This document shows positions 26,600 to 28,615 of a stretch of 31,307 nt of DNA, piece by piece. This stretch comes from a virus. The notes under the pieces are model-generated. The model was not told the DNA's origin and did no database searches. It was given only the letters and a program-made list of their open reading frames with translations. The stretch's first letter is position 1, and each line of letters opens with the position of its first letter. The DNA lies in IMG/VR virus record IMGVR_UViG_3300030061_002495, positions 1 to 31,307 of that record; one strand, given 5' to 3'. A program made the translations under genes and the position numbers.

Positions 26600-28615
26600 T
26601 TATCCTCTTAAATACCGTAATAAATCGTCAAATTCTTTAGCCCCAACTATACCATCATCTCTTAAAGTAGAATATAGAGCTGCAACAGGGTCAAGTTCAC
26701 TATCTACATTAGCGTCTAAGATACCCGCTTCGCCATATGGAGATCCATATATAGAACCAATATCTACTAATTCTCCTGGTTCTTCTCGCACTATACGAAA
26801 TTGAGGTTGAAAGGTACTAGCAGGTGCCGCTCTACCTGTACCCGTTCCTGTACCCGTTCCTGTACCCGTTCCTGTTCCTGTTCCTGTTCCTGTTCCTGTT
26901 CCTGTACCCGTTCCTGTTCCTGTACCCGTCCCTGTTCCTGTTCCTGTTCCTGTTCCTGTTCCTGTTCCTGTCCCCGTCCCTGTGCCTGTTCCTGTACCTG
27001 TGCCTGTACCTGTACCTGTACCTGTACCTGTACCTGTACCCGTTCCTGTACCCGTTCCTGTACCCGTTCCTGTACCCGTCCCTGTACCCGTCCCTGTTCC
27101 TGTACCTGTTCCTGTACCTGTACCTGTCCCCGTAGTACCAGTAGTACCCGCACCAGTAGGAGCAACTCCACCAGTAGGGGCAACTCCACCAGTAGGTATA
27201 ATTATGTTTGGAACCCCTGTAACAGTAGTGCCTGTAACAGTAGTTGTTGATGTACCAGTACCCGTAGTTGTTGGTGCAGCCGTTACTGTACCCGTTACTG
27301 TACCCGTATTAGGTATAATTATGTTTGGAACCCCTGCAACAATAGTGCCTGTAACAGTAGTTGTTGATGTACCAGTACCCGTAGTTCCACCATGTTCCAA
27401 AGTAGCAGTGCCATCAGCATTAACTAACACGTTAACTTTTTCACCATCTTTAAAAGTTTTATCAGAAGCCCCTACAACAACCATTCGACCAATTTTGTCA
27501 GTGGTTCTTATTAACTTCCCATCTAAATCATAATAATTATAATTAAATGTATCCGTAGTAGAATCGTATTCCCAAGCCCCACTACCACCAGCAATATCAC
27601 CAGTAGCACCAGCAGTACCACCAGCAGTACCACCAGTAGCATCAGCAGCACTATTAGCAGCGGCATCAGCGGCAGCTTTAGCGGCGGCGGCATCAGCAGC
27701 GGCAGCGGCGGCGGCGGCGGCGTTTTTTGTTTCAGCGTTTGCGTGTTTATCATCACTTGGCTGAGTTATCTTTACTCGTCTTGAAATTTTACCTCCAGCA
27801 TCAGCACCTTTCTCTAGGTCAAGTGTTGTAACGTCATTAAAAATCCCTGCTTCATTTAAAATATCATGTATAACTTCCTTGGACGCTCCACTATTTATTA
27901 AATCTTCAAGACCACCAATCCAGCTACTATCTAATGGAACTGGATTTTTTTCCGCAATATCGACAAGATCCCAAAACGTGTCTTGCATAGAATCGCTTAA
28001 AACCCCTCCTCCGTATCGTCTTGGATGCCTCCCTCCGTATTCTTTTGCCTGATCTATCGATGCTTGTCTTACTGAGTCATAAATAGCGTCTGGGGTTATA
28101 TTTAACGTATTTGTGGGAATGTTTACTAAATTTGGATCATTTGGATCAGGCTCAAAGCCCATTATTTTAGAAAGCATATCCATGTCATACGCAGGAGTCC
28201 CTGACCCAAAATCAAAATTGTCTCCTGATGCCGCTCTTAAAATTGCCGCTTCTGCATTTTTTTGCGCTACCATTATATTGTAAGCGTCTTGACCGCCAGG
28301 GTAATTGTTAGGAGCTATGTAATTCCCATTAGCATCATATAAGCCAGTGGTATCTCTACCTGCGGCAGGGTCACTATCAAGTGTAGTGTTTGATCCAACA
28401 AGAGAAGGCAAACCTGCCATATTGTTAAAAGTGCTAGGGTCATAAAACCTGAAATTGTCATTAGAAGTTGATTTTTTGTTATTGTTAAAAGTGCTCGGAT
28501 CATAAAACCTGAAATTGTCAGAACCACTACCAGTGCCAGCATAAGGAGCATCACTAGACCCGATAAAACTTCTGTCTTGAATAGCTCCTAGTAGTCTATC
28601 TAACCCATCATCCAT
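26600..28615 (-). CDS. Virion-operon protein with long Thr-Gly repeat, 671 aa
   Basis: A protein of unknown function between structural genes. The N-terminal region has two copies of [11 protein letters not shown] (about residues 32-63). A poly-Ala stretch (about residues 297-320) is followed by a duplicated block with VPNIIIP. A run of about 50 Thr-Gly pairs then covers about residues 495-594. The C-terminal ~75 residues are a normal-looking acidic domain ([19 protein letters not shown]). The Thr-Gly run is extended, flexible and probably a spacer, as in some fibre, adhesin or tail-tip proteins. The start has no strong Shine-Dalgarno and lies 3 bases after the upstream stop, so reinitiation is likely. 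It could be a minor tail/fibre or internal protein. Confidence 0.75.
26833..27131. repeat. Hexanucleotide simple-sequence tract encoding Thr-Gly
   Basis: About 300 bases of a degenerate 6-base unit (CCTGTT, CCTGTA, CCCGTT, CCCGTA and close variants on the plus strand; roughly 50 copies). Read on the minus strand it encodes alternating Thr and Gly inside the 671-aa protein. The unit is a multiple of three, so copy-number change by slippage or recombination would lengthen or shorten the protein without a frameshift. The other frames are also open and give meaningless Val-Pro or Gln-Val runs. Confidence 0.95.
27194..27385. repeat. Pair of ~74-bp direct repeats, period 117
   Basis: The block starting AGGTATAATTATGTTTGG at 27194 recurs at 27311 and runs on for about 74 bases with only about two differences. 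It lies next to the hexanucleotide tract, inside the 671-aa gene, and encodes the duplicated VPNIIIP segment. Recombination between copies would delete 117 bases (39 codons) in frame. Confidence 0.85.
28421..28520. repeat. Pair of 40-bp direct repeats, period 60
   Basis: Positions 28421-28460 and 28481-28520 match at 38 of 40 bases. They encode two copies of [14 protein letters not shown]-type sequence near the N-terminus of the 671-aa protein. The period of 60 bases keeps the frame. Confidence 0.9.

Follow-up and report, generated by a model that had tools for sequence, protein, structure and literature searches.

Podoviruses that are diverse, and for the most part uncultured, repeatedly carry long threonine-dipeptide linkers at a single site in the tail operon. 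Judging by the libraries and papers searched, this has not been described before; literature searches for phage Thr-Gly repeats, or for repeat slippage in phage tail genes, returned nothing relevant. The case described in detail here is (Thr-Gly)50, an array within the product of a gene designated gene A, carried by a short-tailed water phage whose IMG/VR virus record is 31,307 bases long (the window, i.e., the whole stretch of DNA analysed). On balance, we lean towards reading this array as a disordered spacer of evolvable length in a modular virion-associated protein, selected for its Thr-Gly composition. What seems one odd repeat becomes part of a general pattern, in which long Thr-Gly or Thr-Pro linkers have arisen repeatedly at a fixed tail-operon place in uncultured podoviruses. 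The protein that hosts these linkers is otherwise hypervariable and unannotated.

Gene A and Its Operon

Up to about 15.8 kb the window holds replication genes, oriented rightward; beyond that point come the virion genes, oriented leftward. The convergent boundary between them (15823-15995) is also where the GC skew changes sign. The features of interest are as follows, with compared loci numbered L001, L003, and so on.

21866..24616, minus strand: SLT lytic-transglycosylase virion protein
24639..25541, minus strand: DNA ejection-like protein (phrog_4287)
25552..26598, minus strand: gene B, with a variable N-terminus and a C-terminus conserved as DGEFVIPADVVS.LGNG; L010 and L208 have it fused with gene A
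26600..28615, minus strand: gene A, encoding the 671-aa Thr-Gly repeat protein
26603..26824, minus strand: C-terminal module of gene A, residues 598-671, common to proteins with quite different linkers
26834..27133, minus strand: (Thr-Gly)50 array, residues 495-594, with all variation at third codon positions
27194..27373, minus strand: 117-bp-spaced duplication, a 17-letter peptide present twice, in a Thr-rich linker region
27341..27583, minus strand: conserved module, residues 345-425, 100% identical to L001, with a low-confidence beta prediction
27629..27724 (about), minus strand: poly-Ala-rich tract, residues 298-329
27767..28300, minus strand: N-terminal module, residues 106-283, 31% identical to L017/L019 (E 2e-15)
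28421..28519, minus strand: 60-bp-spaced duplication, a 13-letter peptide present twice
28619..29512, minus strand: phrog_8198 protein, with a predicted N-terminal helix and a beta jelly-roll-like region
29512..31296, minus strand: tail nozzle, P22 gp10-like (phrog_3287; profile match to PDB 8zkk 'nozzle gp16', E 2e-13)

Gene A has the nozzle and phrog_8198 genes upstream and gene B, the phrog_4287 gene, the SLT gene, and a gene for a DarB-like giant protein downstream. Its placement in a virion operon, proposed in an earlier reading made without database searches (the sequence-only reading), is thus borne out. The nozzle gene has profile matches to two solved podovirus nozzles, 8zkk and 8zkm (E 2e-13), and a relative in an annotated phage record (DSL-LC04) is labelled stabilization protein. 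The phrog_8198 protein could be a needle or a fibre; a PDB fold search gave only common jelly-roll arrangements for it. In phage P22, the gene order is nozzle, small tail genes, and ejection genes (gp10 nozzle, gp26 needle, gp7/gp20/gp16). The window has the same order, but gene A matches no known family; by position, its slot is near that of gp26/gp14. The gene A protein may sit in the tail or ejection module of the virion.

The C-terminal motif of gene B, DGEFVIPADVVS.LGNG..EAGA..L..MMDR, is also found at the end of TG-bearing proteins from distant phages (L101, L112, L138, L166, and others). The SLT protein contains internal duplications, AAQGRRD.F..L and SPNLYQYGTE.IVEE, and is strongly diverged between close relatives.

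Searches of PHROGs, Pfam, and NCBIfam gave no match for the gene A protein, including none to a fibre or receptor-binding family. Similarly, tblastn of this protein and of the L036 and L187 proteins gave no match in annotated phages, which suggests that no annotated isolate carries gene A. An AlphaFold model of the Thr-Gly protein, made from a five-sequence alignment, is poor throughout (mean pLDDT 34) and renders the array as coil; with no usable fold, it was dropped as a basis for fold search.

The position of gene A, ahead of the phrog_4287 ejection-like, SLT, and DarB-like genes, also fits a narrower reading, which overlaps the spacer reading and makes it more specific. The product could be an ejection protein, a low-complexity chain stored in the head or tail that threads the portal unfolded and spans the periplasm with other ejection proteins. 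Mosaic ejection proteins that refold on exit have been reported (PMC8954989), and some gene A variants, such as that of L036, carry hydrophobic Ala/Gly segments. However, a membrane-spanning segment is reported to be conserved in gp14- and gp16-like ejection proteins (PMC8954989), and the window protein has none (maximum 19-aa hydropathy 1.13). An ejection role is less likely than not, though worth keeping in mind.

Probable Selection on the Peptide

Codon positions 1 and 2 are the same in all 50 units of the window array, and the differences, which affect 12 Thr and 28 Gly codons relative to the commonest codon, are silent. The sequence-only reading had described a ~300-bp, 6-base repeat encoding a ~100-residue Thr-Gly run, and residues 495-594 are indeed exactly (Thr-Gly)50. 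Its hexanucleotide tract stands with respect to the 6-bp period, but a perfect microsatellite it is not: at the DNA level the array is built from six hexamers, all synonymous, and these are arranged in blocks (12-bp lag, p<0.0005). Tandem Repeats Finder (TRF) reports 26833-27127 with a period of 6, 49 copies, and an 82% match, and scores an 18-bp period higher. The 117-bp-period duplication, poly-Ala tract, and 60-bp-period duplication that were said to flank the array are each found in gene A, and all spacings are multiples of three, as claimed. The 117-bp-spaced copies lie at 27195/27312 and 27243/27360 (the protein repeat starts at residues 415 and 454), while the 60-bp-spaced copies, 28481-28519 and 28421-28459, are identical at 37 of 39 bases. 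A plus-strand (PV)n ORF that overlaps the array (26982-27533) is taken as a by-product of the repeat.

An assembly artefact is an unlikely source of the array, since the longest exact repeat within it (42 bp) is short for ordinary assemblies and since a close relative, present in three IMG/VR records, also has an array. Judged from the sequence rather than from reads, collapse of the array during assembly is not expected either, given the same 42-bp maximum.

Because the differences are confined to third positions, the strand, frame, and period of the variation are those expected if selection acts on the peptide rather than on a DNA word. In other arrays the silent sites are scrambled without block structure: L101 has 36 units and 14 hexamers, L188 has 50 and 15, and L166 has 67 and 12. 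None of these three contains an amino-acid replacement, a lack that is partly ascertainment, as the runs were picked as perfect TG, but less so where synonymous sites look saturated. Purifying selection for dipeptide composition is the simplest reading of these sequences, and despite the ascertainment bias, neutrality is hard to maintain with silent sites near saturation. Such codon-scrambled arrays would be a natural case in which selection keeps a repeat in the protein while breaking it in the DNA. That the scrambling also guards against slippage is speculation.

Recurrence at the Gene A Position

A scan of IMG/VR for runs of at least 12 TG units gave at least 119 loci; 120 loci with at least 12 TP units were listed, and 240 control loci were obtained via two unrelated 15-mers, one lower and one higher in G+C. 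Loci were scored for the cassette by homologues of the window nozzle, gene B, or ejection gene, the latter two by matching parts. Among the matches listed, the cassette is present in 33 of 119 TG loci (Fisher p 1.3e-16) and in 12 of 120 TP loci (Fisher p 1.2e-5), versus 1 of 240 controls, and homologues of these three genes occur in none of 116 cellular TG loci. The repeat ORF lies downstream of the nozzle gene, on the same strand and within 8 kb, in all 27 nozzle-bearing TG loci listed, a count that does not allow for general operon orientation; (Thr-Pro)n ORFs are placed likewise in the nine nozzle-bearing TP loci listed. Clustering of the nozzles splits the 27 TG cases into 18 groups at 70% identity and into 9 at 50%, so the recurrence is not that of one clone.

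A repeat-blind set agrees with this placement. In 80 IMG/VR loci reached via the phrog_8198 neighbour, with repeats ignored, a 30-aa window of less than 2 bits is found in 15 of 45 gene A sequences, compared with 0 of 45 nozzle and 0 of 45 phrog_8198 sequences (p=1.5e-5); many gene A sequences in the compared loci are cut by contig ends. The view that such a tract is unusual in a compact phage genome is not supported, as long TG and TP arrays recur at the gene A position in many phages.

Shared Modules Around Different Linkers

The nozzle and phrog_8198 proteins of L007 are 95-96% identical to those of the window, yet tblastn detects no similarity between the two gene A proteins, marking gene A as a variability island. 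For the same pair, identity falls to 74% in the ejection protein and to 47% in gene B. By these comparisons, the island starts right after phrog_8198, with a weaker extension into gene B and the SLT gene.

The linker type differs among loci: (TG)n, (TP)n, poly-Thr with Cys repeats, GPTGPT, (TNDEI)n, Ala-rich, and Pro-rich linkers all occur. L017 and L019 have N- and C-terminal modules in common with the window but not the linker. L134 combines the window N-terminal module (42% identical over part of residues 106-283) and a segment resembling the residue 345-425 module, ending EHGGT, with (TG)32 and (TG)19 arrays and another C-terminus. In L208 and L210, PPYVPP repeats join an N-module like that of L134 to a window-like C-module; gene B is fused on in L208, and only the start of gene B in L210. 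Related C-terminal modules come after (TG)n, (TP)n, GPTGPT, TTTT/DKAAICPDG, and PPYVPP linkers. For the window, this C-terminal link consists of pairwise matches only, to L017 (E 1e-8) and to L208-L210; when a profile was built with the window and L001 left out, it did not recover the C-terminal segment of either.

In L187 (4189-8370), the TG run of the gene A-position protein is immediately preceded by a dockerin-type match (PF00404, at cut-off), and the gene A variant of L007 (6898-8760) has tandem Cys-bearing repeats (DKAAICPDGTDK..IPAGQTVAWCT) with poly-Thr between them.

Array Length Turnover

Array length differs among phages, with 50 units in the window, 44 in its close relative, 32 and 19 in L134, and 54 in L184; L168 and the other arrays that reach contig ends were left out of this comparison. 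The close relative is represented by L001, L003, and L004, which share >99.9% identity among themselves and about 92.7% with the window. That all three have (TG)44 was discounted as a sign of stability, because at this identity they are one strain. Across 8.6 kb, L001 and L004 have a single indel between them: an ACT codon for Thr, within a short Thr stretch of gene A.

The relative's array also varies only synonymously, in 44 of 44 units, but its blocks are of 18 bp (p 0.006) rather than the 12 bp of the window. The two arrays align no better than shuffled units (p 0.75), whereas fourfold sites in the phrog_8198 gene and gene B differ by about 9%; the array has thus turned over completely while its flanks have changed little. 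Shorter steps are seen elsewhere. L082 and L161, whose flanks are 99.5-99.9% identical, have 15 and 16 units, a 2-unit block in one being swapped for a 3-unit block in the other, and in L169 and L195, which have an identical left flank, the first run comprises 20 and 22 units, respectively. The comparison with related phages that the sequence-only reading called for agrees with a changeable copy number, as near-identical strains of two other phages differ by one or two units. As the array units are 6 bp and always in frame, there is no frame or on/off expression switch of the kind that marks a slippage contingency locus, and the proposal that the protein can change length and keep its C-terminal domain is supported by the conserved C-terminal segment and by repeat units that are multiples of three.

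The block duplications within the window array, the complete turnover between the window and L001, and the many unrelated repeat types at the same place could all be accounted for by a disordered loop that tolerates repeats and lets them expand and contract by slippage without a selected function. This seems improbable. Neutral arrays should gain replacements as well, but the silent sites are scrambled, in some arrays into nearly all hexamers without blocks, and the TG peptide is still perfect; moreover, the same position is reused across many lineages. Even less probable is that gene A encodes a hypervariable adhesin or decoy on the surface, altering receptor contact through differences in repeat number within populations: gene A is unrecognisable between phages with nearly identical flanking genes, and unit number differs among near-identical strains of two other phages, but the tract varies in length without side-chain diversity, matches no receptor-binding or fibre family, and shares its variability with the gene B N-terminus and the SLT protein, so that variability is not specific to receptor contact.

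A Proposed Spacer of Evolvable Length

Composition, the low-confidence coil prediction, the replaceable linkers, and the modules that recur beside different linkers together favour a flexible spacer. That the array is disordered is suggested by its composition, the AlphaFold coil coming from a poor model. If present in the virion, the array would tether the variable N-terminal modules to the conserved C-terminal segment, which may be the anchor. Selection would hold the Thr-Gly composition, while duplication or deletion of blocks in multiples of 12-18 bp would shift the length in frame; at the same place in other phages, (TP)n, poly-Thr, GPT, (TNDEI)n, or Pro-rich linkers would serve instead. 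The earlier suggestion that the tract sets spacer length fits this scheme. Its other half, variation at a receptor-contact site, is not supported, as length alone changes and the residues stay TG; nothing connects the gene A protein with a receptor. If the spacer reading is true, linker length would be an easily evolved variable in short-tailed phages as they reach or cross the envelope.

More tentatively, the gene that follows the podovirus nozzle gene may belong to an undescribed, widespread family of modular proteins. Their interchangeable low-complexity linkers would serve as a ruler or tether open to evolution: modules would be exchanged at the linkers, in-frame duplication of blocks would adjust linker length, and codon scrambling would stabilise long arrays.

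Comparison with Known Repeat Proteins

The nearest working analogy is pIII of the filamentous phages (f1/M13), in which glycine-rich linkers lie between the N-terminal binding domains and the C-terminal virion anchor (PMC10175506). The likeness is one of layout, in the use of flexible low-complexity linkers. The virion type is different, there is no sequence relation, and gene A has no demonstrated receptor-binding domain. The window protein contains no hydrophobic segment that could form a C-terminal anchor like that of pIII, and it is therefore not of the pIII family. Drosophila PERIOD (PMC4709423), a eukaryotic clock protein unrelated in sequence and context, also has Thr and Gly in alternation; it has 14-24 pairs, and both the sequence and the length of its repeat are polymorphic within populations.

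A survey of low-complexity regions (LCRs) in prokaryotes and phages reports, in the passages available, that Ala, Gly, and Pro are enriched in phage LCRs and that the longest phage LCR has 115 aa (PMC6821194); those passages mention no low-complexity gene that recurs at a set position in tail operons. The TG array of L126, with 98 units (196 pure TG residues) and all 16 possible hexamers, exceeds the maximum given there.

TG linkers of 15 to 66 units also occur between N-terminal parts and a hydrophobic C-terminus in inovirus-like, adsorption-type proteins (L088, L121, L123, L152, L154, L192), several of which match phrog_4352 or phrog_17788. Judged from layout, with no family match to confirm it, these may be equivalents of pIII.
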